The translations under genes and the position numbers were made by a program. A DNA stretch of 39,024 nt, taken from the IMG/VR virus record IMGVR_UViG_3300046724_000098, positions 1 through 39,024 of that record. The stretch is one strand, 5' to 3'. This DNA comes from a virus. This document shows positions 22,768 through 39,024 of the stretch, piece by piece; the first letter of the stretch is position 1, and each line of letters starts with the position of its first letter. The notes under the pieces were generated by a model. That model made no database searches, was not told the origin of the DNA, and saw only the letters and a program-made list of their open reading frames with translations.

Positions 22768-24738
22768 CGTCGTGCCCTTTCCATTGATCGATATCCTTCT
22801 GGCTTGCCCGCCGGTTGATCCACGACGTCGTGTCATCGCGTCTTTTCTGCCTTGCCCGGCAAAGACGAGATCGAGCGTCGCGGGAGAAATCTTCAGAGAC
22901 TTGGCGACTTGCAGCGCGTTGGGATTCGCCGGGACCGCCACGAGCGAAGTTTCGAGCAACTCCTGCTTCGTGAAGCGGAAGCCAACGGCTTTCCCTTCGC
23001 TGTCGTTGAGCGGTTCGTAATCGCTTGGCCGGAAGCCGACCGACACGGCACGCAGAATGCCTGCCTCGATCAGCCGACGAATTTCATCGATCCGAGGCGA
23101 GGTGCCTTCGGGCGCGAGCACGAGGTGGCCGCGCAACGTGTTTTTCTCGACGCGCAGATTGCGCCACTTGCCTATGGGAAAATCGGTGCGATGGTTGAAG
23201 AGCGCGATGGGGTTTTTCGTGAAGTTCGCGATATCCCACCCCGTCGCCGAGATAACATCGCCCATCCTGTCAACCGATTCATCGGAGAGGATAAACTCCA
23301 TGCCATTGACCGGCTCGACGTGCGTCTTGAACACGCGACCAGATGGCGGCGCACTCTTGCGGGTCGCTGGCTCGGCGTGCCGCTCGTCCCACACCATCTG
23401 GCACTGCTCGGCCGCCGCATCCGGGTCCATGTCGCCGTCATCGGTCAGTTCGTCGGTGCAGCGATCCATGAAGTCGTCGTAGGTTTCGTCGTCGTCAGGC
23501 GGATCGACGTCCTCGGCCTGCTTGACGGTCTTTGCCTTGTCCTTGTCGCGCCAGATCGTGAGACAGGCGGCGACCGCCTGATCCTGCGGGCGCTTATCCG
23601 CACCGGTGCCGACCATTTCCGGCACGCAGCGGCCCATGAACGCCTGTTGGGTTTCGTCCTTGTGCGGAGAGATCGGCATGGCTAGCTCCATTGCGCGGAT
23701 AAACTCGCCGAGCACTTGCGCGGCGCTTTTGGACTCGCTTGCTGGCTTTTTGCCTTTGCCGCCGGTGAACTTTTCGGCGGCTGCGATCAGCTTGGTGATT
23801 GAAATGTTGACGCGAGCGATCTTGACGTTTTTGTCGTCGTGCAAATTGTTGTCCTGGGCGTCGATGCCTAGCTGGCCAGCCCAGGTGTGATGGCCATCAA
23901 GGATGTAGTCGTCTTTCGAAATGACGAGGCGCTTGTAGAAACCGTCTTTCTTGATGCGCGCCATCTGCGTCGCAACTTTTGCGCCGCTGATCTCGGACTG
24001 GGTCGCGCGCAGATTGGCAGCGCGCTCGTGCCCCTTCTCGACCTCGTACCCCTGGCCTTTAAGGTACTTGATGAATTCCTTGGTTTGCTTCGCCGGGATA
24101 ACCGGCATCTCGACACGCGGAATGCCCTTGGTGTCGGCGCAGAACAGATTTGTCCCTGGCACACTCACGTTGCACAGGTTGAACACCGGCGCAGTCTCGC
24201 CTTGCGCCGCCATCTCGGCGGCGGTTTCACCGAGGCGCTTGATCAGCGTCGAGACTTGCTTGACCTGGGCGAGTTCGACCTTGCGGTCCTCGAACAGGGC
24301 GCGCTGCGCGTCGTAGACGTTGGACGTGTGGATTACGCCGTCCTTGACGTAGGCCGAGGCGGAATATCCAGGCCCCGGATGCTCGCGCTTGCCGCCATCG
24401 CTCGGCTTGTCGCCGCCGGTGCTGCCGCCACCGCCGCCGCCCCCACCGCCATCGGTCCACTTGCCGCTTTCGTCGCGCGGGTGCTTGTCCTCTTCGTACT
24501 CACGAGCGGCGCGAGAGTCTGCCGCACTCTTTTTTGAGGTGCCGCCGCCGAGCAGCAACGCGTCGAGATCGGCATCGGACAAGCCGAGCCGCTTGCCGAC
24601 GCTGCGGCCCACGCCTTCGGCTGCTTGGTGATCGCCCTGATCGAGGATCGACTGATGTAATTCGGCATCTTCGGCGCGATGGTTGCGCCAGAAGAAAAGC
24701 TCACGCGGGCTTTGCTTTTGCTTTCCCGACGTAGGCAT
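21343..24738 (-). CDS. Polyprotein: ParB-like domain, prohead protease and HK97-type major capsid protein
   Basis: 1131 residues in one open frame. Residues 81-105 carry the motif YEEDKHPRDESGKWTDGGGGG. Residues 195-330 resemble a ParB-like fold with ILDGHHTWAGQ at 279-289. Residues 350-455 hold two copies of a Cys-containing segment (FMGRC...IW and FMDRC...VW). Residues 465-620 are a U35-type prohead protease with His516 (LFNHRTDFPIGKW) and Ser566 (RAVSVGF). From Met658 the sequence is an HK97-fold capsid protein with an N-terminal coiled delta domain. The gene overlaps the preceding stop by 38 bases. Protease and capsid are separate genes in most phages. Confidence 0.92.
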   Translation of the reverse strand: MPTSGKQKQSPRELFFWRNHRAEDAELHQSILDQGDHQAAEGVGRSVGKRLGLSDADLDALLLGGGTSKKSAADSRAAREYEEDKHPRDESGKWTDGGGGGGGGGSTGGDKPSDGGKREHPGPGYSASAYVKDGVIHTSNVYDAQRALFEDRKVELAQVKQVSTLIKRLGETAAEMAAQGETAPVFNLCNVSVPGTNLFCADTKGIPRVEMPVIPAKQTKEFIKYLKGQGYEVEKGHERAANLRATQSEISGAKVATQMARIKKDGFYKRLVISKDDYILDGHHTWAGQLGIDAQDNNLHDDKNVKIARVNISITKLIAAAEKFTGGKGKKPASESKSAAQVLGEFIRAMELAMPISPHKDETQQAFMGRCVPEMVGTGADKRPQDQAVAACLTIWRDKDKAKTVKQAEDVDPPDDDETYDDFMDRCTDELTDDGDMDPDAAAEQCQMVWDERHAEPATRKSAPPSGRVFKTHVEPVNGMEFILSDESVDRMGDVISATGWDIANFTKNPIALFNHRTDFPIGKWRNLRVEKNTLRGHLVLAPEGTSPRIDEIRRLIEAGILRAVSVGFRPSDYEPLNDSEGKAVGFRFTKQELLETSLVAVPANPNALQVAKSLKISPATLDLVFAGQGRKDAMTRRRGSTGGQARRISINGKGTTMSLAQRVKDSETRLLALKDELRQHFDKVDDTNVTDDDLKRSDELNEKIDAEARTYTVLVESERHLGATSDDSRGGRTTALAVTNGRGSGHGTDTGIGNGVRPFSIAAKKIDPIEYLVRAGTVQLFAHLQRKPLDEIRQAIYGEDEPTRAVLDWATRAATAPAMTTVTGWAAELVQQIVVDFMALLLPKSIFPRLSAMGLSLTFGRNGKIIIPTRSITPTIAGSFVGEGAPIPVRQGAFTSQTLTPKKMAVITTWTREISEHSIPAIEGLLRNAIQEDTAVSLDAVLLDANAATVIRPAGILNGVTALTATTGGGFAALVGDIKQLSGALLTGTRGNVRNPAWLMNPQQVNSAGLVAAPGVGAFPFRDEISRGQLGGWPIIDSGTVPLGTVVAIDAADFVAVGGEAPRFEISDQATLHLEDTSPADIVGGVSPGTPAFPTKSMWQTDSLALRLIMPINWVIRRPGTVAWTQSVTW
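24434..24480 (-). repeat. 47-base direct repeat, copy 1 (HPRDESGKWTDGGG module)
   Basis: This segment is identical over 47 bases to 26178-26224 in the neighbouring gene on the same strand. It encodes RDESGKWTDGGGGG in both proteins, with the flanking Y(E/D)ExKHP also conserved in protein but less so in DNA. It may reflect recent module duplication, gene conversion, or recombination between adjacent virion genes. Confidence 0.9.
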
Positions 24739-26332
24739 TAAACCGATCCATCGTTTCCTTGTCCTTCAGGTTGAGCGCGCCATACCAATCGGTGCCGAGC
24801 AGGAGTTTTTTGCCGTACTTCGAATCCGCAATGGCCCAAAGAGCTTTTGGGTCGTTGCTTTGTGTCAGCTTGCGCAGCCGTTCAGCGTCGTCCGCGCTCA
24901 TCTCCCCGGTGCCTTCAACGCCGCCGCTTACCGTGAGGAAATCCGACGCGTTGTCCTCAGCCCATCGGTATTTTTCGCGGTCGTCCATCTGGTCCCAGTA
25001 TTCGCCCTGGTATTCCTCGACGCTGTCACTCAGATAATCCGGCGGTTCGATGTCGTCGGCCTTGTGCTCCGCTTCACGGTCGAACGCCTTGTCGATCACA
25101 CTCGTCAGCCCGTCGCGCATCTCAGGGGTCAACCGCTCGTGCGGCGCGACCGGTGGAATGCCCGGCAATGTTTCCTGCGCTGGATCGTGACCTGTCGGGT
25201 TCGTCAGCTTGTGATCGACAAACTGAACTTCAAGGTCGCCCCTGCCATCGCCGCCACCGGTGTCGTAGTTGAGCGAAACCGCATTCAGAATCTGCTCATC
25301 GGTAAATGGAATTTCAGATTGGCCCTGCTCCTCGCGGCTCTTGCGATAACCCGCGATGGCGTGCTCGGCCCAATCCATGGTGCCGCCCTTGTTGAAGTCT
25401 TCCGCGACGGCCGCCTTGGCGTCATCGAGGGGCTGGCCGCCATCGCGCCAATTATTGATCTCGCTATCCAAAAATTCGCTGCGCGTGCTGCGCATCCAGG
25501 CGCCTTCAATTTTCGACTGGTTGCTGCTCGGCAGATCGTCCCAGCTACCTGCAGCATCGCCGCTTCCGCCGCCACTGCTAAGCTTGTCGATCTCGTAATC
25601 CAGGTCACCGCGCAGGTTAGGCCAAGAACCGCGCTCGGGTACGTAGCCGTATTTTGCCCACGCGTAGCCGCCGACGTCGATGTCGGCGTGGACCTGCACC
25701 TTGTCGAGGCCAAGCTTCTGGTACATCGCAATGTTCGCTGCGAGCACTGTCTTGCCAATGCCCGCGCTCTGCGAACTGTCGTCCAACTTGAAATATTCGC
25801 TGATCGCTTTCTTTTGGGCGAAATCAATCGTGCGGGTGTACTCGCCAATCCCGTCGCCATTGGCATCCTTGAGAGTCCCGGCAACAACGAATTTGTCGTC
25901 GCCCTCTTCGTAGCGGATTCCCATCGAGGCATTGATGCCGCCAAGGAATTCCTTGCGAAACTCGGCAGGCGCTTCCGCGATACGCGAATTCCACACATCG
26001 ACAAATTTCTTCTGCTTGTCGGGATTTGACTGCGTCCCCGGATCGAGCCTGATTTCGTCTTTCGCAAAGTCGGCAATCTCGATTTTCTTCTTCTCGCCGC
26101 CAGCCTCGCTTCCACCCGGCGCAGCAGGCTTTGCTTCGGCTGCGGGCTTGTCGGTGCCAGTGCTGCTGCTGCCGCCACCGCCGCCCCCACCGCCATCGGT
26201 CCACTTGCCGCTTTCGTCGCGCGGATGCTTCGACTCGTCGTACTCGCGCAGCCGCGCGAGCGACTGCGCCTTGAGCGCCAGGAAGCGGGCGCGCCGCAGT
26301 GACTGATCAGAATCGCGCGCCAGTGCTTCCAT
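24701..26332 (-). CDS. Putative capsid-packaged protein with GNAT-like domain
   Basis: 543 residues. Residues 30-54 carry the same tag as the capsid polyprotein (YDESKHPRDESGKWTDGGGG), followed by a Gly/Ala/Pro linker. Residues 135-240 look like a GNAT acyltransferase fold: QSAGIG at 188-193 fits the Q/R-x-x-G-x-G acetyl-CoA loop, and GGYAWAKYGYVP at 221-232 fits the family's C-terminal strand. The remaining 300 residues are acidic and unassigned. Proteins with such tags next to capsid genes are often packaged and ejected. Enzyme activity is a prediction. Confidence 0.72.
   Translation of the reverse strand: MEALARDSDQSLRRARFLALKAQSLARLREYDESKHPRDESGKWTDGGGGGGGGSSSTGTDKPAAEAKPAAPGGSEAGGEKKKIEIADFAKDEIRLDPGTQSNPDKQKKFVDVWNSRIAEAPAEFRKEFLGGINASMGIRYEEGDDKFVVAGTLKDANGDGIGEYTRTIDFAQKKAISEYFKLDDSSQSAGIGKTVLAANIAMYQKLGLDKVQVHADIDVGGYAWAKYGYVPERGSWPNLRGDLDYEIDKLSSGGGSGDAAGSWDDLPSSNQSKIEGAWMRSTRSEFLDSEINNWRDGGQPLDDAKAAVAEDFNKGGTMDWAEHAIAGYRKSREEQGQSEIPFTDEQILNAVSLNYDTGGGDGRGDLEVQFVDHKLTNPTGHDPAQETLPGIPPVAPHERLTPEMRDGLTSVIDKAFDREAEHKADDIEPPDYLSDSVEEYQGEYWDQMDDREKYRWAEDNASDFLTVSGGVEGTGEMSADDAERLRKLTQSNDPKALWAIADSKYGKKLLLGTDWYGALNLKDKETMDRFNAYVGKAKAKPA
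26178..26224 (-). repeat. 47-base direct repeat, copy 2
   Basis: Second copy of the repeat described at 24434-24480, 1744 bases away, in the same reading frame relative to the tag motif. Both copies sit near the 5' end of their genes. Confidence 0.9.
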
Positions 26333-30258: not shown

Positions 30259-30377
30259 TTCAACTCTCCTCACAGTTGTTGTTTCCGGCCGCGCACCAAA
30301 GAGTGCGCCCGCGCTCGATTTCCGGCATTTGGAAACGCCAGCCGGACGATTGCAACAAAAAATGTAGTAATTACAGC

Positions 30378-30406
30378 ATGATAGGGGCAAAACAAGGCAC
30401 TTGCAA
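30378..30406 (-). promoter_or_regulatory. Probable promoter for the terminase/structural arm
   Basis: On the minus strand, TTGCAA (30406-30401), a 17-base spacer and TATCAT (30383-30378) form a sigma70-like promoter. TATCAT matches five of six consensus -10 bases. Transcription would begin near 30371, about 110 bases before terS. TTGCAA is self-complementary and also serves the plus-strand promoter. Confidence 0.6.
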
Positions 30407-30429
30407 AAGTGACATGGTGTCACTATATT
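30401..30429 (+). promoter_or_regulatory. Probable promoter for the right (early) arm
   Basis: TTGCAA (30401-30406), a 17-base spacer and TATATT (30424-30429) on the plus strand; -10 matches five of six consensus bases. The spacer contains a perfect operator-like inverted repeat. Predicted start near 30436, leaving a leader of about 400 bases before the first gene at 30846. Confidence 0.65.
30408..30424. promoter_or_regulatory. Operator-like inverted repeat AGTGACA-TGG-TGTCACT
   Basis: Perfect 7-base arms separated by three bases, lying between -35 and -10 of the plus-strand promoter. The core TGACA-N3-TGTCA recurs at 36356-36368 in another promoter-like site. A dimeric HTH repressor bound here would block RNA polymerase. 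The HTH protein at 37996-38202 is a candidate. Confidence 0.65.
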
Positions 30430-30790
30430 TATTGATGGTTGGACGGCAGTAGCCAGTCCAGTCGGTGACCTAGTGCAGTAGCCAGACGTCACCTAGGGCC
30501 TTCGGGGCCGACCACTCGCAAAGCGCCAGATACGGGCGCACCAGAGAACTCCCGACGGAACGCTGATCGCGCGACACCGGCAACGCCCACGGGCAATGCC
30601 ACCGACGTTGCTGCGGAAAAGTAGCTCCCTGTGCCCGGTGCCGCTCGCAAATGAGGACGATGGCGGGGTTCAAGTGGGGAAGCGAGGATTGATGCGAGCC
30701 GAAAACGGGGAACTGCAGAGCGCGGTGGCCATGTTGGCAATGCCAGAGAACGAAGCGCCCCACCAAAATGAAATGAGTAACATCAAACAC
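30430..30790. other. Noncoding region between the divergent arms, with short repeats (possible cos/pac site or leader RNA)
   Basis: No convincing gene in 360 bases: the frames present lack ribosome sites and read as random protein. The direct repeat GCAGTAGCCAG occurs at 30446-30456 and 30475-30485 (29-base period). GGTGAC/GTCACC arms lie at 30464-30469 and 30488-30493, and ACCTAG occurs twice. A small GGCC-TTCGG-GGCC hairpin follows. Upstream of terS is where packaging sites commonly lie, so cos/pac is possible. The region would also be transcribed from the plus-strand promoter, so a noncoding RNA is an alternative. Confidence 0.45.
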
Positions 30791-30814
30791 TGCGGCGGCT
30801 TTCGAGCCGCCGCA
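30791..30814 (+). terminator. GC-rich hairpin with TTCG loop before the first right-arm gene
   Basis: Perfect 10-base stem (TGCGGCGGCT / AGCCGCCGCA) closed by the loop TTCG, followed by ATTATTG rather than a T-run. It may be an attenuator, a processing or stabilising hairpin, or a terminator of the leader transcript. First member of a series of intergenic hairpins in this arm. Confidence 0.6.
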
Positions 30815-30817
30815 TTA

Positions 30818-30845
30818 TTGATGCATCTCACAACAGGAGTCACCC
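30818..30845 (+). promoter_or_regulatory. Leader element: TTGATGCATCTCACA box and GGAGTCACCC ribosome site
   Basis: The box TTGATGCATCTCACA (30818-30832) contains the palindrome GATGCATC. GGAGTCACCC (30836-30845) abuts the ATG at 30846. The same two elements recur before other right-arm genes. The ribosome site includes GAGTC, a GANTC sequence (the CcrM methylation site in alphaproteobacteria). Confidence 0.65.
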
Positions 30846-31100
30846 ATGACACGCAATCAAGCACTGCCCTACGTTTCGTTCTGCGTTGACGACGCGTTGT
30901 CGGAACGCAAGCTCGCCGACATGCCGTCGAATGCGCGGCTTGTCGGTTGGCAGTGCGGCTTCGAACCGCTGTTCGTCGCCGTGTGGTCCTACCTCGACGT
31001 CACGCTTGACGATGACGAGGCGGCCGAGATCGCAACCGATCTGCTGGCCGAAAAGAAATGGTTCGCAGGCGAGCCGACGTCACCCGACTACATCATCTGA
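30846..31100 (+). CDS. Small acidic protein of unknown function, first gene of the right arm
   Basis: 84 residues. Soluble and acidic in its second half (TLDDDEAAEIATDLLAEKK), with no motif I recognise. It is the first gene after the regulated promoter and has the standard GGAGTCACCC ribosome site, so it is probably expressed early. First genes of such arms often encode host-takeover proteins, but nothing in the sequence shows this directly. Confidence 0.8.
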   Translation: MTRNQALPYVSFCVDDALSERKLADMPSNARLVGWQCGFEPLFVAVWSYLDVTLDDDEAAEIATDLLAEKKWFAGEPTSPDYII

Positions 31101-31112
31101 GTCACATCAAAG

Positions 31113-31133
31113 CGCGGCCCCGAGCGGGCCGCG
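31113..31133 (+). terminator. Intergenic GC hairpin
   Basis: Stem CGCGGCCC (31113-31120) pairs with GGGCCGCG (31126-31133), loop of five bases. No T-run follows. It precedes the box and mini-hairpin of the next leader, like the hairpin at 35081-35101. Confidence 0.6.
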
Positions 31134-31136
31134 TCA

Positions 31137-31196
31137 TTGATGCATCTCGCATCCGCCGCTGCAAACGGCGTCCAATCCAAAAACGGAGTCACCCCA
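31137..31196 (+). promoter_or_regulatory. Composite leader of the MoxR gene (box, TGCAAA mini-hairpin, GGAGTCACC)
   Basis: TTGATGCATCTCGCA at 31137-31151; mini-hairpin CGCCG-CTGCAAA-CGGCG at 31154-31170; GGAGTCACC at 31185-31193; ATG at 31197. A near-copy with the same order occurs at 35105-35162. An upstream in-frame start at 31137 would translate through this leader and is rejected. Confidence 0.7.
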
Positions 31197-32231
31197 ATGG
31201 CAACCGCCATCCTTCCTGAAGTCAAGCCGGTCACCATCGCGTTCGCGGCGGTGCTGCTTCAACACTACATCGGCAAGCGCAAGTCCGCGATGCTCTGGGG
31301 GCCTCCCGGCATCGGCAAGTCGGCCATCGTCTACCAGATCGCAGCGATACTCGGCTGGAAGGTGATCGACTTTCGCGCCAACATTCGTGAGCCGGTTGAC
31401 GTTCGCGGCATCCCGGTGCCCGATCTGAAAACCGGCACGACGCGCTGGCTCGTTCCTGACGAGCTTCCGCGCGTTGATCGCGACGGCGAGCACGGCATTC
31501 TCTTCCTTGACGAGATCAACACGGCCAGCCCGCAGATGATGGCCGTGCTCTTCCAACTGATCTGGGAGCGCCGGGTTGGCGACTACAAGCTCCCTGACGG
31601 CTGGGTGATCGTCGCGGCAGGCAATCGCGTGAGCGACCGTGCCGCCGCCCAGCGGATGCCGACCGCTCTGCGCAATCGCTTCGCGCACATCTACGTCGAG
31701 GTTGACGTGAAAGCGTGGTGCGATTGGGCGACGACGGCGAACGTCGCGCCCGAGCTTGTCGCCCTCATTCGGCTTCGCGGCAAAGACGTGCTGCACATCA
31801 TGCCGCGCGGCGACGAGAACGCGTTCCCGACGCCCCGGTCGCTGACCGATGCGGCCGAGTACGTGGACGCACCGAAGGATGTGCGGATGCAGCTTTTCGC
31901 TGGCTGCATCGGCGACGCGGCGGCGGCCGAGCTTGATGGCTTCATCGAACTCTATCGCAGCCTCGGCTCGCTGGAAGACATCGTGCGCGATCCGAACAGC
32001 GCGCCCGTGCCGACTGAGCCGTCGAGCCGCTACGCCGTCTGCACCGGCCTCGGCCGGATGGCCGACCGCAAGAACCTGCAGAACATCGTCACGTATGTGA
32101 AGCGCCTGAACCATCGCGAGAGCGAGCTTCTGGTGATGCACGACGCGACGTTGCGCAATCCCAAGCTCAAGGAAACGACGACCTACGGCAAGTGGGCCGT
32201 CGAGAATCAAGACCTGATCGTGCAGATGTAA
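31197..32231 (+). CDS. MoxR-type AAA+ ATPase
   Basis: 344 residues from ATG 31197, placed after GGAGTCACCCCA. Walker A GPPGIGKS lies at about residues 35-42 and Walker B ILFLDEIN at about 100-107, with a sensor/arginine-finger region around MPTALRNRFAHIYVE. Members of the MoxR branch usually work with a VWA-domain partner in protein remodelling. Here a DUF3150 protein and a VWA/metallopeptidase-like protein follow directly, so the three probably act as a unit. This trio is known in phages but its substrate is not established. Confidence 0.92.
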   Translation: MATAILPEVKPVTIAFAAVLLQHYIGKRKSAMLWGPPGIGKSAIVYQIAAILGWKVIDFRANIREPVDVRGIPVPDLKTGTTRWLVPDELPRVDRDGEHGILFLDEINTASPQMMAVLFQLIWERRVGDYKLPDGWVIVAAGNRVSDRAAAQRMPTALRNRFAHIYVEVDVKAWCDWATTANVAPELVALIRLRGKDVLHIMPRGDENAFPTPRSLTDAAEYVDAPKDVRMQLFAGCIGDAAAAELDGFIELYRSLGSLEDIVRDPNSAPVPTEPSSRYAVCTGLGRMADRKNLQNIVTYVKRLNHRESELLVMHDATLRNPKLKETTTYGKWAVENQDLIVQM

Positions 32232-32238
32232 TGCACGG

Positions 32239-32260
32239 GGCGGCGCGCGAATGCGCCGCC
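32239..32260 (+). terminator. Intergenic hairpin with T-rich tail
   Basis: Stem GGCGGCGC / GCGCCGCC, loop GCGAAT, followed by ATTGTTTTCT. It is the best intrinsic-terminator candidate of the series, though the operon appears to continue, so partial termination is likely. The GCGAAT loop recurs in the hairpin at 33189-33208. Confidence 0.6.
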
Positions 32261-32289
32261 ATTGTTTTCTGAAACGGAGTCACCCACCC

Positions 32290-33183
32290 ATGTCTAAGAA
32301 AATCGCCACGCCGCTCGCCCGCAAGGCCGTGCTGGTGTCTGTCACCATCTCGCAGTGGACGGCGCGCAAAAAAGACAAGCGCGTCACCGCCGAGACGAAC
32401 CGCCGCCATCACGCATCCGACGATGCTGGCACCTATCACAAGCTGCTGATCCAGAAAGAGCGGCTTGCGGAGATCAACGCACTCGTGTCGGCGGCGCGGG
32501 CGCTGCACTACGAACTGACGCACCCGTGGGCCGACGAAGGCCCGCGCGTTCTGCCCAACGCGTTGTTCGCCAAGTTCTCGGAGAAATTCCGCAAGCTCAA
32601 GCGCGAGTTCGACACCGCTGCGGATGACTTCGCTCGCGACTATCCGCAGTACATCGCCGAGCGCAAAGTTGCGCTCAACGGTCTGTTCAGCGAGGCCGAC
32701 TATCCGCCGGTCGAGCAGATCAGGAGCAAGTTCAAGCTCGACATGACGATCCTGCCGTTTCCCGACTCGGCTGACTTCCGCGCCGACCTGGATGACGACA
32801 CGGTCGCCGACATCAAGCGCGAGTTGGAGCAAACAACGGCTCGCGTCGGCAACGATACGCTGCGCCACACTGCGGAGCGGATCACCGAAGCTGTCGGCCA
32901 CATGGCCGAGAAGTTGCGGGAGTACAATTCGGGCAATCTCGGCAAAGACGGCAAGCGAAATTTCTTTCTCAACTCGCTGGTCGATAACGTGCGCGACCTT
33001 GCCGAGTTGCTGCCCGCCTTCAACCTCACCGACGACCCGAAGCTCAACGCGATCACCAAGCGCATCTTGAAAGAGTTGTGCGCGGAAGATGCGGCCGAGC
33101 TTCGGAAGAATGACGCCGCTCGCGAGTCGGTCAAAAAGTCGGCCGACGAGATCGTGAAAGCGGTTTCGCAATTCCTGGCTTGA
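32290..33183 (+). CDS. DUF3150-family protein
   Basis: 297 residues from ATG 32290, behind GGAGTCACCC. The N-terminal pattern (VSVTISQWTARKKDKRVT, then HYELTHPWADEGPRVLP and ALNGLFSEADYPP) is typical of the phage DUF3150 family. It is mainly helical, without enzymatic motifs. It lies between the MoxR ATPase and the VWA protein, as these families often do, and may be an adaptor or the remodelled substrate. Confidence 0.88.
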   Translation: MSKKIATPLARKAVLVSVTISQWTARKKDKRVTAETNRRHHASDDAGTYHKLLIQKERLAEINALVSAARALHYELTHPWADEGPRVLPNALFAKFSEKFRKLKREFDTAADDFARDYPQYIAERKVALNGLFSEADYPPVEQIRSKFKLDMTILPFPDSADFRADLDDDTVADIKRELEQTTARVGNDTLRHTAERITEAVGHMAEKLREYNSGNLGKDGKRNFFLNSLVDNVRDLAELLPAFNLTDDPKLNAITKRILKELCAEDAAELRKNDAARESVKKSADEIVKAVSQFLA

Positions 33184-33188
33184 TCTAT

Positions 33189-33208
33189 CCCCCGCGCGAA
33201 TGCGGGGG
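33189..33208 (+). terminator. Intergenic GC hairpin
   Basis: Stem CCCCCGC / GCGGGGG with loop GCGAAT, between the DUF3150 and VWA genes. No T-run follows. Belongs to the same intergenic hairpin series. Confidence 0.55.
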
Positions 33209-33230
33209 CTTCCACCAAACGGAGTCACCC

Positions 33231-34763
33231 ATGTCAGACCTTCTCACCACCACCGCAATGCAGCGCGTCCAGCGGGCGCGCAGCGAACTGATCATGTCGC
33301 GGCGGTTCTACGGTGTGCTCGTCTCGAACGTCGAGCCGATCATCACCCGCAAGCACGAGACTGCGGCGACGAACGGACGCCAGCACTTCTGGAATCCCGA
33401 CTACATCGCCACGCTGAAACAGGACAACGTGTTGTTCGTGCAGGCGCACGAGAGCGAGCACGATGCCCGACATCACAGCACACGGCGCAACGGTCGCGAC
33501 CCGGAGCGATGGAATAGGGCTTGCGACTACGGGATCAACATCGATCTCGTTGACGAAGGCTTCGTGCCGCCGCCGGGCATCTTGCTCGACGCGAGGTTTC
33601 GCGGCATGAGCGCCGAGGAAATCTACCGGTGCCTTGAGCTTGACGAGGCCGCGCAGCAACAGCAGCAACAGCCGCAGCCGCAGGAAGGCGACGGCGATGC
33701 CGACGAAGACGAGCAGCCGCAGTCCAACGGCGACGACAGCAACGACGCTGGCGACGACCAGGGCAAGAACCAGGGCGACGACGCGAGCGACGACGCTGGC
33801 GACGACCAGGGCGAGGGCGGTTCGGGCGACGCCGACGATGGTGACGCTGATCAGGACGCAGGTTCTGGCGGCGATGCCGACGACGGCGAAGGCCAGGGCG
33901 GCGACGCCGAGGGCGAAGGCTCTGACGCTGAAGGCGGCAACGGTGCTGGCAACGGCAGCGGCGACGCCGAGGGCGACGACCAGGGCGAAGGCTCTGGCGC
34001 GGGCGACGCGGACGGCGAGGGCGCTGGCAGCAAGCCGGTCGTCGGCGACGTCGGCGGCTGCGGCGAGGTGCTCGACGCGAGCGACGAGCCGGGTGATCTC
34101 TCCGAGCAAGATGCCAAGTGGGAGCGGATCACGCGGCAAGCGGCATCGCTGGCGAAGGCTATCGGGCAGTGCCCCGGCCACATCACGCGCGAGATCGAAC
34201 GGTCGAATAATCCGACCCAAGACTGGCGCGAGGTGCTGCGGTCCTATTTCGATCAAGGTGCGCTTCGCACCGAGACCTGGAATAGGCCGAACCGTCGCCA
34301 CATCGGCCGGGGCGTAGTCCTGCCCGGCTCGCAGCGCGACGGCGTGAACAAGGCGTGCTTTCTGATCGATACCAGCGGATCGATCTACAGCGACCCGGTG
34401 GCGTTGCAGCTTGTTCGCGACGAGGCGCAGGCCGCGCTTGACGACCGTATTGTTGACGAGGCCGTCGTGATCTACGGCGACACGGCGGTCACGCGTGTTG
34501 ACACCTACCGCACGGGCGACGAGATCGAGTTCGACCCGCGCGGCGGTGGCGGCACCGACATGAAGCCGCTGTTTGAGTACGTCGCGGAAGAGCACGACGA
34601 CGCATCGCTGATCGTCTGCTTCACCGACCTTGAGATCGGCGACCCCGGCGTCGAGCCGCATTGCCCGACGCTGTTCGCCGTGACCGGCTATCCGCAGCGG
34701 GTGCGCGAGCTTATCGCGAACGCCCCGTGGGGTGCGCCGTGCATCGACGTCGGTGCGCACTGA
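33231..34763 (+). CDS. VWA-like protein with metallopeptidase-like N-terminus (DUF2201 type)
   Basis: 510 residues from ATG 33231, directly after GGAGTCACCC. Residues 1-140 resemble the putative metallopeptidase domain of DUF2201 proteins, with HESEH fitting HExxH. Residues 145-290 are a very acidic low-complexity linker (Gln, Asp, Glu, Gly), as in CobT-type proteins. The C-terminal 180 residues are a VWA-like domain with a MIDAS motif DTSGS (within ACFLIDTSGSIY). It is the expected partner of the MoxR ATPase. Whether the HExxH site is catalytic is unknown. Confidence 0.9.
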   Translation: MSDLLTTTAMQRVQRARSELIMSRRFYGVLVSNVEPIITRKHETAATNGRQHFWNPDYIATLKQDNVLFVQAHESEHDARHHSTRRNGRDPERWNRACDYGINIDLVDEGFVPPPGILLDARFRGMSAEEIYRCLELDEAAQQQQQQPQPQEGDGDADEDEQPQSNGDDSNDAGDDQGKNQGDDASDDAGDDQGEGGSGDADDGDADQDAGSGGDADDGEGQGGDAEGEGSDAEGGNGAGNGSGDAEGDDQGEGSGAGDADGEGAGSKPVVGDVGGCGEVLDASDEPGDLSEQDAKWERITRQAASLAKAIGQCPGHITREIERSNNPTQDWREVLRSYFDQGALRTETWNRPNRRHIGRGVVLPGSQRDGVNKACFLIDTSGSIYSDPVALQLVRDEAQAALDDRIVDEAVVIYGDTAVTRVDTYRTGDEIEFDPRGGGGTDMKPLFEYVAEEHDDASLIVCFTDLEIGDPGVEPHCPTLFAVTGYPQRVRELIANAPWGAPCIDVGAH

Positions 34764-34768
34764 AAACT

Positions 34769-34795
34769 GCCGGGCGGCCCGCGTGGCCGCCCGGC
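34769..34795 (+). terminator. Strong intergenic hairpin after the VWA gene
   Basis: Perfect 11-base stem GCCGGGCGGCC / GGCCGCCCGGC with loop CGCGT, followed by CCTTTGC. It is the strongest stem in the series and lies just after the last gene of the MoxR/DUF3150/VWA unit. Confidence 0.65.
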
Positions 34796-34830
34796 CCTTT
34801 GCAAGCCCACTCTCACAAACGGAGTCACCA

Positions 34831-35067
34831 ATGAGCTACTGCCCTTGGACAAAAAATTTACACACCACGCACGAGGCCGGGAGACGGAAAGCCACAAAAC
34901 GGACGCACAAGCCGAAGCCCGCGCAGCCATCGAGGTTCTCGACGCATAGCCACTTCAAGCAAGAGATCGGACTCGGATCGCGCCCAGACGTTTGTGCAAA
35001 TTGCCGAATGCCGTTCGAAGACCACTACAACGGCGCGTGTCCGAAAGACGAAAACGAGAAAAGTTAG
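34831..35067 (+). CDS. Small basic protein with Cys motif
   Basis: 78 residues from ATG 34831, right after GGAGTCACCA. The N-terminal half is rich in Lys, Arg and His (HEAGRRKATKRTHKPKP). The C-terminal half has CANCRMPFEDHYNGACP, a possible single zinc-binding site. No known family; nucleic-acid binding is plausible from charge but unproven. A longer upstream frame is rejected because it lies across the hairpin and lacks a ribosome site. Confidence 0.75.
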   Translation: MSYCPWTKNLHTTHEAGRRKATKRTHKPKPAQPSRFSTHSHFKQEIGLGSRPDVCANCRMPFEDHYNGACPKDENEKS

Positions 35068-35080
35068 AGTCGTATCAAAG

Positions 35081-35101
35081 CGCCGCCCCATGCGGGCGGC
35101 G
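35081..35101 (+). terminator. Intergenic GC hairpin
   Basis: Stem CGCCGCCC (35081-35088) pairs with GGGCGGCG (35094-35101), loop CATGC. It is followed by the TTGATGCATCTCGCA box, as after the hairpin at 31113-31133. Confidence 0.6.
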
Positions 35102-35104
35102 TCG

Positions 35105-35162
35105 TTGATGCATCTCGCATCACGCCGGTGCAAAACGGCGAACACATGAAACGGAGTCACCC
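35105..35162 (+). promoter_or_regulatory. Composite leader, near-copy of the MoxR leader
   Basis: TTGATGCATCTCGCA (35105-35119), mini-hairpin CGCCG-GTGCAAAA-CGGCG (35123-35140), then GGAGTCACCC (35153-35162) abutting ATG 35163. Order and most bases match 31137-31196. Confidence 0.7.
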
Positions 35163-35681
35163 ATGTCACCGAAGCTTGAAGCCATTGCCGCCTACGATGC
35201 CGCGCTGAAGCGACCGGACAAGGCCGATTGGCGCGCCGTCGCGAAGCTCTTGCGCGACGTTCTCCCGCAACCGCGCGTCGGCAAAACGATGCCGCGATCC
35301 GATGGCCACACCGAAATCGCCGACTACGTCACGAAAGGCAAATCGAACCGACGCGGCCCGTCGATGGTCGTCACGTTCGAAGATGACACGCAGGTTCGCA
35401 TGTCGTTTTCGTCGCAGGAAGGCAAGCCGATCAACGCGGGGCTGGGCCTGCGCGTCGTGTGCTCGGGCTATCGCACGAAGCGGGCTTTCCCGATCAGCGA
35501 TCTGAAGGCCATCGCCAAGCTTGGCGTGCCGTCGATCCGCAGCGCGCATGCCGAGCGGGACGGCGACGTCGTCGCCACGTTCGACCCTATCGAGTGCAAC
35601 GGTTACACCGCGCCCTATCGGCAAGGCATGCCGTATGAGAAGTGGCGTTCGCGTCGCGACCGGTTGCACGTTGCAGCTTAA
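35163..35681 (+). CDS. Protein of unknown function (172 residues)
   Basis: 172 residues from ATG 35163 with the standard ribosome site. It looks like a small alpha/beta protein: an N-terminal helix (LEAIAAYDAALKRPDKADW), a middle beta region (RGPSMVVTFEDDTQVRMSF), and a C-terminal basic tail. No motif recognised. It starts a second group of tightly coupled small genes. Confidence 0.78.
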   Translation: MSPKLEAIAAYDAALKRPDKADWRAVAKLLRDVLPQPRVGKTMPRSDGHTEIADYVTKGKSNRRGPSMVVTFEDDTQVRMSFSSQEGKPINAGLGLRVVCSGYRTKRAFPISDLKAIAKLGVPSIRSAHAERDGDVVATFDPIECNGYTAPYRQGMPYEKWRSRRDRLHVAA

Positions 35682-35695
35682 AAGGAATCGCCCCA

Positions 35696-35977
35696 ATGAC
35701 AACGAGACTAGAGCAACTCAAGGAAGCGTTCGCGCGCAATCTGGCGCGGACGCTCGCCGACGATCCGAGCTACTACGCCTGGAAAGCCGAAGAGCTTCCG
35801 GACGTCACGGCCCGCATGCTTGCGGCCATCGACCGTGCGGGCGGGCTTGGCGGCATCAACATCCAGTCGCGCACGTTCACGCGCACCGCCCGCGAGTTCG
35901 GTATCAAGAACACGTACAAGGCATGGGCCGCGTGGCTCGCCGCCGATGTGAAAGAGGAGTCGGACAATGGACTGTGA
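35696..35977 (+). CDS. Small helical protein of unknown function
   Basis: 93 residues from ATG 35696 after AAAGGAATCGCCCC, a diverged form of the common ribosome site that still holds a GANTC site (GAATC). Mostly helical (RLEQLKEAFARNLARTLADD), with a C-terminal part RTFTRTAREFGIKNTYKAW that could be a helix-turn-helix-like or DNA-contacting segment. It overlaps the next gene by 11 bases. Confidence 0.78.
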   Translation: MTTRLEQLKEAFARNLARTLADDPSYYAWKAEELPDVTARMLAAIDRAGGLGGINIQSRTFTRTAREFGIKNTYKAWAAWLAADVKEESDNGL

Positions 35978-36140
35978 CGCCCACACCAAAGACGACGGCT
36001 CGTGGTGGGAGCACGATGCGCGCGGCATTCCGCTTTGCCGCGTTTGCGCCAAGTGCAAGCGCCGCAAGCTTGCGCACTACCGGCCCGAGGTGCTGTCCGA
36101 TCCCAACTACGTGGCGGACGAACCGATTGATGAAGACTGA
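35967..36140 (+). CDS. 57-residue CxxCxxC mini-protein
   Basis: ATG 35967 to TGA 36140, with GAGGAGTC upstream; it overlaps the previous gene. The motif CRVCAKCKRRKL and the following HYRPEVLSDPNY are recurrent in small phage proteins. It is probably a zinc-knuckle protein. Function unknown. Confidence 0.8.
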   Translation: MDCDAHTKDDGSWWEHDARGIPLCRVCAKCKRRKLAHYRPEVLSDPNYVADEPIDED

Positions 36141-36146
36141 AAAAGA

Positions 36147-36179
36147 GAAAGCCGGGGACCGTGAGGCCGCCCGGCTTTC
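36147..36179 (+). terminator. Probable terminator after the first right-arm gene group
   Basis: Ten-base perfect stem GAAAGCCGGG / CCCGGCTTTC with a 13-base loop. It lies seven bases after the stop of the CxxCxxC gene and starts the only sizeable noncoding gap on the right arm, which contains a new promoter-like site. This supports a transcription-unit boundary. Confidence 0.6.
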
Positions 36180-36194
36180 CCGTTGGAATGCGGA

Positions 36195-36227
36195 TCGCGT
36201 GCAAACGCGACCTGCGTGGAGTCACCC
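36195..36227 (+). promoter_or_regulatory. Orphan leader remnant (TGCAAA mini-hairpin and GGAGTCACCC without a gene)
   Basis: Mini-hairpin TCGCG-TGCAAA-CGCGA (36195-36210), followed by GGAGTCACCC (36218-36227), but no start codon or open frame follows directly. It looks like the leader of a gene that has been lost, with another leader reached 170 bases further on. Confidence 0.55.
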
Positions 36228-36276
36228 TTCCAACAGTGCGGAGGTTAGGGCCACGGTCCTGCACCGTCAATTGGCG

Positions 36277-36285
36277 TTATCCACA
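36277..36285 (+). promoter_or_regulatory. Perfect DnaA box TTATCCACA
   Basis: Exact match to the consensus DnaA binding site, in the 263-base noncoding gap, about 70 bases upstream of a promoter-like site. A single box could regulate transcription or form part of a replication origin. No cluster of further boxes or AT-rich unwinding region was seen nearby. Confidence 0.5.
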
Positions 36286-36343
36286 GGTGGGTGCTGCGAG
36301 AGATCAGCCAACTTTTGGCACACTCTCGGCCCGCCGCACGCTT

Positions 36344-36372
36344 TTGACCCGAGGGTGACAATTTGTCATACA
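36344..36372 (+). promoter_or_regulatory. Promoter-like site with second operator copy (TGACA-ATT-TGTCA)
   Basis: TTGACC (36344-36349), a 17-base spacer and a weak -10 CATACA (36367-36372). The inverted repeat TGACA-ATT-TGTCA (36356-36368) has the same core and spacing as the operator at 30408-30424 and again falls between the promoter elements. It would drive the second gene group starting at 36404. Confidence 0.55.
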
Positions 36373-36403
36373 CACGCCAATCAACCGAAACCAGGAGTCA
36401 CCG

Positions 36404-36631
36404 ATGACCACCACGACACAGAATCCAAACTGCAGCGGCAACCATTGCCGCTCCACCACCGGCGAGGTTCGCGTCTACCCGCTCGGCGGCGGCGGCAACT
36501 TGATCCTCTGCATCGCTTGCTGGGCGCATGAGAACCGCTACCGGTTCGAGCGCGGGCGCGAGACGCGCGAGCCTGCGAACTGGCCCCAGGTCGATTGGGC
36601 CACAGCGGAAGTCTACGGAGGTGCGTCATGA
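36404..36631 (+). CDS. Small Cys-containing phage protein of unknown function
   Basis: 75 residues from ATG 36404 after GGAGTCACCG. Conserved-looking features are CSGNHCRSTTGEVRVYP near the N-terminus and LILCIACWAHENRYR in the middle; four Cys residues could bind one zinc. Similar small proteins are recurrent in alphaproteobacterial phages as I recall, without known function. It is coupled to the next gene by ATGA. Confidence 0.82.
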   Translation: MTTTTQNPNCSGNHCRSTTGEVRVYPLGGGGNLILCIACWAHENRYRFERGRETREPANWPQVDWATAEVYGGAS

Positions 36632-36999
36632 TCACGGCGAAGACGCAACCATTCTGTCATTGGTGCGGCAAACCGCTGCGCAAGCACGCCGTGCGACGCC
36701 ACCCGCCGGGTCAGTTGGGGTTTAACGATTCAACTCTGCGCACTCTCGCGGATTGTCAGCGTCGCGAGAACCAGAAAGTGATCAGCGTGCAGTACCGCTG
36801 GGACTACGACGACGGCGACAAAATCCCGAGCACGAAGCGCATCCACAGCTACGCTGTTTGGGACGGCGAGACGTATCAGGCGGTGCTCGAATTCTTCTGC
36901 ACCAACGACTGCGCCATGTCGTTAGGCCACGCGGCAGCGAAGCATCACAACATCGTTGGCAAGGCTTTCAACGAGGCCACGCGAAAGGCAAAGCCATGA
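36628..36999 (+). CDS. Zinc-ribbon-like protein of unknown function
   Basis: 123 residues from ATG 36628, overlapping the previous stop (ATGA). CHWCGKPLRKH at the N-terminus and FFCTNDCAMSLGH near the C-terminus give two Cys pairs typical of a split zinc ribbon. The middle is beta-rich. No enzyme motif. Its stop overlaps the next start (ATGA). Confidence 0.82.
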   Translation: MITAKTQPFCHWCGKPLRKHAVRRHPPGQLGFNDSTLRTLADCQRRENQKVISVQYRWDYDDGDKIPSTKRIHSYAVWDGETYQAVLEFFCTNDCAMSLGHAAAKHHNIVGKAFNEATRKAKP

Positions 37000-37199
37000 C
37001 CGACCGTGAAGTTCTCGCCATGCTGCGCGGTTCGCCGAGCGGCACCACCGAAGCGATGGCGGCGTTGCACGGCATCGACCGCGCCCAGCTTGATCGGCTT
37101 GTTGCCGCAGGCCGGGCACGCGTCCAGATGCAGGCGCTCCACAAGCCACGCATCGTCAAGTTCGCCACGTTCTTTTTCAACTCTCAACAGGAAACATGA
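36996..37199 (+). CDS. Small protein of unknown function (67 residues)
   Basis: ATG 36996 overlaps the previous stop. The first 45 residues are helical (TDREVLAMLRGSPSGTTEAM, then HGIDRAQLDRLVAAGR) and could form a winged or simple helix-turn-helix. The C-terminus is basic and aromatic. No family recognised. It ends within the start of the next gene. Confidence 0.75.
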   Translation: MTDREVLAMLRGSPSGTTEAMAALHGIDRAQLDRLVAAGRARVQMQALHKPRIVKFATFFFNSQQET

Positions 37200-37459
37200 C
37201 CATGACACTCACACGTCTCGCCATCGTGCTGGCGTTGTTCGCGCCAGCCGATGCACTCGCACAGTCCAGCACTTTCTACGACGCGTCCGGCCGCGTGTCG
37301 GGTCGCTCGGCCACCGACAGCGGCGGCGCGACCACGTTCTACGATCCGAGCGGGCGCGTCACGAACCGCGCATCTATCGATAGCCAGGGCACCACGACGA
37401 TCTATGACGCAAGCGGGCGCAAGGTCGGAACTGATCCAACGCAGGAGAAACGACGATGA
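37196..37459 (+). CDS. Secreted YD-repeat-like peptide
   Basis: 87 residues. A signal peptide is evident (LTRLAIVLALFAPADALAQ, cleavage after AQ or nearby). The mature part holds three copies of a motif of the form TFYDASGRVxxRxxxDxxG, like short YD/RHS-type repeats. Start is ATG 37196 or ATG 37202; the second has the better spacing from AGGA. A phage-encoded exported repeat peptide of this size could alter the host envelope, which is inference. Confidence 0.8.
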   Translation: MTMTLTRLAIVLALFAPADALAQSSTFYDASGRVSGRSATDSGGATTFYDPSGRVTNRASIDSQGTTTIYDASGRKVGTDPTQEKRR

Positions 37460-37668
37460 CGATGCACGAGTGGATCACGGGCAGGGGCAGGCGCGGCCTG
37501 CTTTTGCCGTTGAGCTTGCCGGGCATGCTGTGCATCGGCTGCGTCATCCTGCCCCCGCTCCTGGTGCTCACCATCGTCGGTCCCGGTCCCGATGACGAAC
37601 GGCCGCCTGATCCGTGGCGCAAGCGCCAGCGCATGCGGGCCGTGCGGCGGAAGGATGTTCGACCATGA
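37456..37668 (+). CDS. Small membrane protein with one transmembrane helix
   Basis: 70 residues from ATG 37456, overlapping the previous stop. Residues 15-42 form a hydrophobic helix (LLLPLSLPGMLCIGCVILPP then LLVLTIV), followed by a basic tail rich in Arg. It could be a holin-like or envelope protein, but there is no adjacent endolysin and no way to tell from sequence. Confidence 0.72.
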   Translation: MTMHEWITGRGRRGLLLPLSLPGMLCIGCVILPPLLVLTIVGPGPDDERPPDPWRKRQRMRAVRRKDVRP

Positions 37669-37847
37669 CCTGGGAAACCCTGAACGCTGTCCGCACCGCG
37701 ACCCGGTGCGAGTTCTCTGCCGCGCTCGCTGCGCGGCACGTCTTTGTGCGACTGCTAAGCGGGCGTTGGGGCCGATGCCTCGACGCGCCGCCGCTCAACG
37801 CCGTGCATGTGCGCGGCAACGTCTACCATCTCGCGGAGGGCCGGTGA
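37665..37847 (+). CDS. Small protein of unknown function (60 residues)
   Basis: ATG 37665 overlaps the previous stop (ATGA), which supports this start. Basic, mixed composition with a helix (WETLNAVRTATRCEFSAALA) and a strand near the end (AVHVRGNVYHLAEG). No family recognised. Confidence 0.7.
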   Translation: MTWETLNAVRTATRCEFSAALAARHVFVRLLSGRWGRCLDAPPLNAVHVRGNVYHLAEGR

Positions 37848-37848
37848 C

Positions 37849-37986
37849 ATGCACCTCATATTGCTCGGCCTCTTCTTGATCTTCATCGTGTGCCTGATGC
37901 GGTCATGCAAGACATCACCGCCAGTGGTGCCGGTGCCAGAACCGGACTCGCAATTCACCATCATCGTTATCAACATCAACGACTGA
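37849..37986 (+). CDS. 45-residue membrane or lipoprotein-like peptide
   Basis: ATG 37849 to TGA 37986. Hydrophobic N-terminus (HLILLGLFLIFIVCLM) followed by RSC and a Pro-rich segment SPPVVPVPEPDSQ. It resembles an outer-membrane spanin (Rz1-type) in size and Pro content, but Arg at -2 of the Cys is poor for a lipobox. Stop is nine bases before the HTH gene. Confidence 0.62.
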   Translation: MHLILLGLFLIFIVCLMRSCKTSPPVVPVPEPDSQFTIIVININD

Positions 37987-37995
37987 GGAGACACG

Positions 37996-38202
37996 ATGAA
38001 GCACACCGCGCAAACCAACGCCGACTTCGTCCGCGCGGCGCGTGAGCGGCTCGGCATCACGCAGGCCGAGTTCGGCGAGCGGCTCGGCGTATCTAAGCGT
38101 ACCGTCATTCGCTGGGAGCAAGGCAGCGTGCTCAAGCGGCGCGACCGCGTCGCCATCACGCTGCTGATCGAGCAACCGGTCGTATCGCAGAGGATCACAT
38201 GA
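37996..38202 (+). CDS. XRE-family helix-turn-helix regulator
   Basis: 68 residues from ATG 37996 behind GAGGAG. A single HTH domain covers nearly the whole protein (FVRAARERLGITQAEFGERL, then GVSKRTVIRWEQG). No dimerisation or protease domain, so it is closer to a Cro-like than a CI-like regulator. It may bind the TGACA-N3-TGTCA sites at 30408 and 36356. That link is inference. ATGA overlap with the radical SAM gene. Confidence 0.9.
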   Translation: MKHTAQTNADFVRAARERLGITQAEFGERLGVSKRTVIRWEQGSVLKRRDRVAITLLIEQPVVSQRIT

Positions 38203-39002
38203 TCACGCTCAACGACGACGGCGTGTCCGTCAAAGGCTGCAGGATCATCTACGCACCGAAAGGGCAGGCGGGGGAATACGCCCCGCTTGCCACCAATCCG
38301 TATCGCGGCTGCGGCCACGGCTGCGCGTACTGCTACGTGCCGCTGGTGACGCATCAGGATCGCAAAGAGTTCGACGCGGGCGCGATCCCGCGTCGCGACT
38401 ACCTCACCTCGCTGTGGGCCGACGCCGCCAAGTACAAGGCGCTCGGCTGTCGCGAACAGGTCATGCTGTCGTTCACCACCGACCCGTACAATCCGAGCGA
38501 CATTTCGCTGACGCGGCCGACGCTCGACACGCTGATCGCGCACGGGCTGGCGATCTGCACCCTGACCAAGGGCGGCACGCGGGCGCTGCGCGACGTCGAG
38601 CTATTCCGCCCGGAGCGCGATGCGTTTGCATCCACGCTCACCTCGCTTGACGACCGCTTCTCGCAGAAGTGGGAGCGCAACGCGGCGCTGCCTGCCGACC
38701 GGATCGCGGCGCTGCGCACCTTCCACGAGCGCGGCATCTTCACCTGGGTTTCGCTTGAGCCGACGCTCGACGTCGATGCGTCGATTGCGATTGTCGAAGC
38801 AACCCACGACTTCATTGATCTCTTCAAGGTCGGCCGGGTGAACTACCTGCCGATGACAAAGACGACCGACTGGCGCGACTACACGGTGCGCATGCTCGAC
38901 GTGCTCAATCGTGTCGGTGCGCGCCACTACATCAAGCGCGACCTGCAAGGCTACCTGCCGCCGAACTATCCCAACGCACTGCGCGTCCCGCAGCATCACT
39001 GA
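38199..39002 (+). CDS. Radical SAM protein, SplB-like
   Basis: 267 residues from ATG 38199. The radical SAM cluster motif C38-x3-C42-x2-C45 (RGCGHGCAYCYVP) is intact, followed by FTTDPYNPSD and a later SLEPTLDVD segment typical of the COG1533 (SplB-like) branch. No obvious C-terminal domain beyond the barrel. Relatives include spore photoproduct lyase-type enzymes, but this short form is uncharacterised and need not repair DNA. Its translational coupling to an HTH regulator is notable. Confidence 0.9.
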   Translation: MITLNDDGVSVKGCRIIYAPKGQAGEYAPLATNPYRGCGHGCAYCYVPLVTHQDRKEFDAGAIPRRDYLTSLWADAAKYKALGCREQVMLSFTTDPYNPSDISLTRPTLDTLIAHGLAICTLTKGGTRALRDVELFRPERDAFASTLTSLDDRFSQKWERNAALPADRIAALRTFHERGIFTWVSLEPTLDVDASIAIVEATHDFIDLFKVGRVNYLPMTKTTDWRDYTVRMLDVLNRVGARHYIKRDLQGYLPPNYPNALRVPQHH

Positions 39003-39015
39003 AAGGAGTCACCTC

Positions 39016-39024
39016 ATGACCGAA
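39016..39024 (+). CDS. Start of a further right-arm gene (three codons in window)
   Basis: ATG 39016, preceded by AAAGGAGTCACCTC (the common right-arm ribosome site). Only ATG ACC GAA is visible. The leader sequence makes a real gene likely. Confidence 0.6.

Follow-up and report, generated by a model that had tools for sequence, protein, structure and literature searches.

The 39,024-base stretch of DNA considered here (the window) is the whole of IMG/VR record IMGVR_UViG_3300046724_000098, read on one strand, and its gene content points to an uncultured contractile-tailed phage as the source. Genes for the terminase large subunit, portal, sheath, baseplate and fibre lie on the − strand, left of 29.9 kb. 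The right arm runs on the + strand from 30,846 and encodes a MoxR-like ATPase, a DUF3150-like protein, a VWA/DUF2201 protein and a radical SAM protein, together with small genes; no DNA match to this arm was found among cultured phages. Genes of the right arm are preceded by members of a repeated leader family, all on the + strand, which is the subject of this work. Comparison with relatives reveals conserved, covarying RNA structures in these leaders, placed at the gene starts of this one arm.

The start-associated sequence GGAGTCACC had been placed before eight right-arm genes in an initial annotation, and this placement was confirmed. The window contains nine exact copies, all on the right arm between 30836 and 39013, compared with a mean of 0.18 and at most two in 100 dinucleotide shuffles. 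Eight of the nine stand 5′ of the named genes: 30836–30844 (gene 30846), 31185–31193 (the MoxR-like ATPase gene, 31197–32231), 32276–32284 (gene 32290, DUF3150-like), 33221–33229 (gene 33231, VWA/DUF2201), 34821–34829 (gene 34831), 35153–35161 (gene 35163), 36394–36402 (gene 36404) and 39005–39013 (gene 39016, which runs off the window). The ninth copy, at 36218, has no plausible start codon directly after it. An identical contig (L001) extends ∼3.2 kb beyond the right end of the window, where gene 39016 is continued and five further copies lie close 5′ of ATG codons. Across the family the start sequence is GGAGUCAC, with AAAGGUCAC in one lineage. GUCAC adds nothing to pairing with the end of the 16S rRNA; in one relative (G009) it is kept while the Shine–Dalgarno (SD) core has changed to AAAGG.

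About 8–20 nt 5′ of the ribosome-binding sequence lies a mini-hairpin with a 5–6 bp stem and a loop of 6 to 8 nt (consensus C-U-(N)-G-C-A-A-(A)); the spacer between it and the start sequence is A/C-rich and unpaired. All three mini-hairpins first reported for the window were recovered: CGCCG-CTGCAAA-CGGCG at 31154–31170, CGCCG-GTGCAAAA-CGGCG at 35123–35140 and TCGCG-TGCAAA-CGCGA at 36195–36210. R1, a covariance model trained on 18 leaders from alignment A5, matches the first at 49.1 bits (this being a training sequence) and the second at 29.0 bits. The third belongs to an orphan leader, with a GC hairpin at 36147–36179 and the ninth start sequence at 36218–36226. No clear gene start follows, and the unit at 36195–36226 is perhaps the remnant of a lost gene.

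For the main test of pairing, sites were chosen by the loop heptamer and its distance from a start sequence (no more than 50 nt 5′ of it), with pairing ignored. This test was relied on instead of an earlier swap test, which used sites preselected for stems; the pair counts were made without MAFFT alignments A1 and A3, in which stems were misplaced. At the 31 sites chosen by heptamer, 137 of 155 flanking cells were Watson–Crick paired. Reducing these to 18 distinct flank pairs left 73 of 90 cells paired, compared with a mean of 43.6 and a maximum of 61 in 10,000 shuffles of the 3′ sides. For 13 distinct mini-hairpins, 93.8% of positions were paired, four of the five pairs had changed on both sides, and covariation was 0.610 as against 0.183 when shuffled (slid-partner controls at most 0.08). 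A dyad DNA site would keep its half-sites, whereas in this family the loop is fixed and it is the stems that vary; on this comparative evidence, the mini-hairpin is therefore an RNA element rather than a DNA dyad.

Its 5-bp stem and GCAA-containing loop are of the size generally associated with boxB, and the leaders might then be nut-like antitermination sites, with boxB-like hairpins read by a phage antiterminator. This we consider extremely improbable: the element is tied to the start codon and repeated before many genes, not once per operon, and boxA is not enriched (72 near-matches against 83.8 expected), so that the lambda-type arrangement of boxA then boxB near an operon start is not seen. 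Mimicry of an anticodon arm (5-bp stem, 7-nt CU-NNN-AA loop) was also considered, and in its strict form is disfavoured by the variation in loop length.

The initial annotation had listed the GC hairpin, a box, the mini-hairpin and the start sequence as four separate motifs, a division that did not survive: they form two modules. The box, TTGATGCATCTCRCA, occurs exactly three times, at 30818, 31137 and 35105 as first described, with none expected. It contributes arms 2 and 3 to a three-arm module; these fold as GATGC-AUCUC-GCAUC, and the TTGATG of the box is also complementary to CATCAA 5′ of the GC hairpin, an element absent from the initial annotation. The order within the module is arm 1, GC hairpin A, arm 2 and arm 3. 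Arm 2 has two possible partners. Pairing with arm 1 lengthens the GC hairpin across a small internal loop; pairing with arm 3 gives a separate second hairpin. The mini-hairpin and start sequence make up the second module, which is also found alone (for example in the relative G002).

Three-arm modules precede gene 31197 (31105–31153; arm 1 CATCAA 31105–31110, hairpin A 31112–31134, arm 2 TTGATGC 31137–31143, arm 3 GCATC 31149–31153) and gene 35163 (35072–35122; arm 1 GTATCAA 35072–35078, hairpin A 35080–35102, arm 2 TTGATGC 35105–35111, arm 3 GCATCA 35117–35122). At these two genes the full set of elements recurs in the same order, as had been noted, with 82.7% identity over 98 aligned columns (about 31099–31194 and 35067–35162). 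The leader of gene 30846 (30781–30832) has arm 1 CATCAA (30781–30786), hairpin A (30791–30814) and arm 2 TTGATG (30818–30823), with a 1:2 pairing of 6 bp; its arm 3 is degenerate and its mini-hairpin absent. GC hairpins also precede gene 32290 (32239–32260), where the mini-hairpin is absent and is present in orthologues, and gene 34831 (34769–34795). At gene 33231 the GC hairpin CCCCCGCGCGAATGCGGGGG (33189–33208) occupies the orthologues' mini-hairpin place, and R1 matches 33190–33230 at 30.1 bits. Genes 36404 and 39016 have the start sequence alone, without hairpins.

The GC hairpins were supported, where they had been placed, by folding and by an inverted-repeat search. Folding z-scores were about −2.9 to −3.1 in five of seven leaders and −2.3 in one; the leader at 32232–32292 folded no better than shuffles (z −0.8). 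In a loose terminator scan of the + strand, only 30791–30814 and 32239–32260 of the leader hairpins passed and the total was near chance. Most leader hairpins are without the U-run of intrinsic terminators, and as a set they are, judged by these features, not ordinary terminators.

Pairing between the arms was counted in 56 modules. Arm 1 and arm 2 paired over at least 5 bp in 37 of these (arm-swap mean 11.6, maximum 20 in 1000 swaps), with examples such as CATCAA/TTGATG, TGATCGCTA/TAGTGATCA and CGTTTCG/CGAAGCG. Arm 2 and arm 3 did so in 43 (mean 16.4, maximum 25 in 500 swaps), with GATGC/GCATC, GTGATC/GATCAC and GAAGC/GCTTC among the examples. The two alternative pairings often use identical arm 2 bases, and their predicted energies lay within 3 kcal/mol of each other in 37 of the 56 modules (median −0.6). 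In the 42 modules where an upstream stop codon was found, it ends a median of 10 nt 5′ of hairpin A, which means that arm 1 would sit under a terminating ribosome.

The leader elements lie at gene borders, they are gained and lost between orthologous genes, and there is the orphan copy at 36195, all of which would suit DNA-level sites: operators, promoters or recombination joints of mosaic gene modules, as proposed for the cluster K elements discussed below. We nevertheless rate sites of this kind as very unlikely, given that the stem sequences vary by site yet stay complementary, that G–U steps occur (they are seen in the second hairpin), that the orientation of the elements follows the gene, and that no promoter-like hexamers were found at the boxes on the coding strand.

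The long form of the first module is also reminiscent of the early RNase III sites of phage T7, which are long hairpins with small internal loops between the early genes of a polycistronic transcript; the likeness, based on predicted folds of the leaders, is that of long intergenic hairpins with a small internal loop. To our knowledge, the T7 sites have no module of conserved-loop hairpin and start sequence, and we know of no alternative third arm in them. RNase III-type processing alone would have cleavage separate the genes and the downstream RNA refold into the arm 2:arm 3 hairpin and the mini-hairpin, which would protect its 5′ end. The GC hairpin extended by arm 1:arm 2 pairing is predicted to form a long hairpin (lower stem 6–11 bp, small internal loop, upper stem 8–11 bp), positioned between a stop codon and the next gene and mostly without a terminator U-run, and the alternation between 1:2 and 2:3 pairing fits cleavage followed by refolding. 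By energy folding, however, this geometry fits many leaders and not all, some leaders have the second module without the first, and neither the conserved loop nor the conserved GUCAC is explained. We think it unlikely that processing by itself accounts for the leaders.

The initial annotation proposed a repeated start-associated family that should recur in relatives, and it does. Relatives were gathered by MoxR protein search and motif search (55–82% MoxR identity), and the leaders were found on the non-structural genes of at least 10 other uncultured contigs, with the sequence often changed and the structure kept (G001/L003, G002/L295, G004/L294, G005/L050, G006/L288, G008/L033, G009/L006, L024, G012/L333 and G013/L335). 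In G001 and G002 a mini-hairpin and GGAGTCAC stand ahead of gene after gene. Most of the seven G009 leaders combine a GC hairpin and a second hairpin with a mini-hairpin and GAAAGGTCAC; in G012 and G013 the loop CUUGCA(A) accompanies GGAGTCAC. UGCA-type loops occur in 11 contigs with GUCAC-type start sequences, and three further MoxR relatives (G003/L004, G011/L332 and L005) have neither. G003 has the loop CUAGCAA and the start sequence GGAGCAAC or GGAGACUAC; G011 has third hairpins without a conserved loop and the start sequence GGAGCAAC. In a MoxR tree whose backbone was not resolved, these three form no single supported group.

The hairpins of the G011 (L332) lineage would suit an explanation in which the leaders are plain strong ribosome-binding sites insulated by hairpins that stabilise the mRNA and keep the start unstructured, with no regulator. 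The A/C-rich spacer and the good SD core are also as expected of such sites. Elsewhere in the family, the loop is conserved despite turnover of the stems, and GUCAC is conserved without extending the 16S rRNA pairing, even where the SD core changes; on balance this explanation appears quite unlikely.

A covariance-model search, as proposed at the outset, gave strong R1 matches at non-structural-arm starts, some of them at sites that had not gone into the model; the structural parts of G001 and G002 gave no convincing match. Hairpins with a UGCA-type loop and a stem of at least 5 bp were present at 26 of 101 non-structural-arm open reading frame (ORF) starts; the opposite strand had them at 4 of 202 (p = 3e-10). 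This enrichment is conservative because the ORF set includes spurious ORFs. No R1 match was found in two bacterial genomes (150 candidates scored; low sensitivity), nor anything significant for a 41-nt consensus in cultured phages or plasmids. Loose scans of viral and genome collections, for TGCAA or CTGCAA spaced from GGAGTCACC, gave mostly chance hits among the matches listed, and a contig was retained only if it had both a stem and repeated copies. Bacterial DUF3150 homologues were present in 4 of 385 genomes from the class of an Altericroceibacterium and in 0 of 369 from the class of an Acidovorax; no leaders were found beside them in the stretches read, and a host is therefore only weakly suggested.

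Three observations adjoin this survey. The cassette of MoxR-like ATPase, DUF3150-like and VWA/DUF2201 genes (31197–34763) is common to nearly all leader-carrying phages. In two much more distant phages, with 37–43% MoxR identity, these genes are likewise preceded by a GC hairpin, a second hairpin of the GAAG...CUUC type and an SD sequence (L011, about 9890–10000; L020, about 5340–5450; each upstream of its MoxR match), which suggests a wider occurrence of hairpin pairs at gene boundaries. In L336, L337 and L339, short hairpins such as GCAAUCAUGC or GGCAAUCACGCC lie a few bases 5′ of the SD at several starts, possibly a different start-associated hairpin family.

The comparative data thus comprise the placement of the leaders, their conservation in relatives, compensatory stem changes, near-equal predicted energies and the linkage of UGCA-type loops with GUCAC. 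The suggestion of a phage-wide translational or RNA-processing control is best upheld in its RNA-level part; the leaders are confined to the non-structural arm and are not phage-wide. They probably constitute a shared mRNA control system, for which the best reading is a post-transcriptional regulon whose non-structural genes are carried on one polycistronic transcript. The mechanism we favour, held at a little under even confidence, is that the leaders are cis-acting RNA modules marking gene boundaries, combining a trans-acting factor at initiation with a switch or processing step at the boundary. The first module, GC hairpin and three arms, stands directly after the upstream stop codon; it would work at the gene boundary through cleavage or through sensing of the terminating ribosome, after which arm 2 would re-pair with arm 3 and cap the new or exposed 5′ side. 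In the second, made up of conserved-loop hairpin, A/C-rich spacer and GGAGUCAC, the loop and GUCAC would be recognised jointly, as one composite site, by a single trans-acting factor, which is probably encoded by the phage and may set translation initiation across the whole gene set. A further step, that this is a new class of cis-regulatory RNA in which a factor-read loop and start regulon is joined to a three-arm switch that senses upstream termination or is reset by cleavage, seems to us rather doubtful.

Several points weigh against the favoured mechanism. No obvious RNA-binding protein was found among the products of the family-shared genes (the MoxR/DUF3150/VWA cassette and a small protein), the ribosome-binding site is free in both folds, and the sequence gives no direction of control. 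Several genes with GGAGTCACC have no mini-hairpin, which is thus not essential for translation. The innermost stem pair of the mini-hairpin is almost invariant, and its loop length is not fixed. The contigs are related and fragmentary, so that counts are not of independent events, and the 56 modules were hand-curated as intergenic from an automatic list. Some arms hold palindromes (e.g. TGATCA) and are complementary to both sides at once, but the CGTTTCG/CGAAGCG and CATCAA/TTGATG families are independent of these.

Rfam 15 gave no match at gathering score in the window, nor at E up to 1 in 30300–39024; the leader family is listed in none of the libraries searched, and no earlier description was found among open-licence papers. 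The likeness to the start-associated sequences (SAS) of cluster K mycobacteriophages, with a different sequence, was borne out. Both are over-conserved sequences that overlap the ribosome-binding site before many genes, nearly always in one orientation; both include conserved bases unable to pair with 16S rRNA, and about half of the copies have an extra upstream element (PMC3203893). The cluster K consensus is GGGATAGGAGCCC (PMC3203893); here the start sequence is GGAGTCACC or AAAGGTCAC. In the extended SAS (ESAS) of cluster K, the upstream element is an imperfect inverted repeat of 17 bp; its variants give little support for RNA hairpins, and the authors preferred DNA-binding sites (PMC3203893); the upstream element here is a covarying 5–6 bp RNA hairpin with a fixed loop, together with a three-arm module. 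In Microbacterium cluster EF, each of the ten SAS copies is linked to an upstream element that is weakly conserved apart from its core, GTAGAG; the sequences and the phages differ from those here (PMC7302621). Nearest in mechanism is the gp43 operator of T4 and RB69, an RNA hairpin whose loop, UAAC, is conserved. It lies about 40 nt 5′ of the start codon, and the phage protein binds the hairpin and a sequence overlapping the ribosome-binding site (PMC3014915). A conserved-loop hairpin 5′ of the start codon is common to both systems, and in our leaders a factor may bind it likewise; the operator differs in its loop, and serves a single autoregulated gene with no repeated regulon. By these comparisons, the leaders are of the start-associated-sequence kind and members of neither the SAS/ESAS groups nor the gp43 operators. 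Cutting at GGAG by a T4 RegB-type enzyme was also considered, and its consensus, GGAGRAYARAA (PMC3014915), does not fit GGAGUCACC.

Other features of the window lie outside the leaders. Between the divergent arms, at 30401–30429, a promoter-like TTGCAA-17-TATATT overlaps a small palindrome, AGTGACATGGTGTCACT; the right arm may have its operator/promoter region here. Within the VWA gene lies a long stretch of low complexity (about 33650–34020). In the structural arm, a ∼123-bp repeat (24404–24522 and 26145–26267, 84.6% identity) lies near the 5′ parts of two adjacent large − strand genes, and one 1131-aa gene (21343–24738) matches both head protease and major head protein profiles, which appear to be fused in it.

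Since 2011, several phage groups have been reported to carry start-associated repeats, for which no function is known; the best-studied of these could not be supported as RNA. The leader family provides comparative evidence that a start-associated element acts as folded RNA: sequence turnover is sufficient to define the loop, the stems and the start sequence, and the loop type and start sequence change together. This suggests that other SAS/ESAS groups, Microbacterium cluster EF included, should be re-examined for variable stems around fixed loops.

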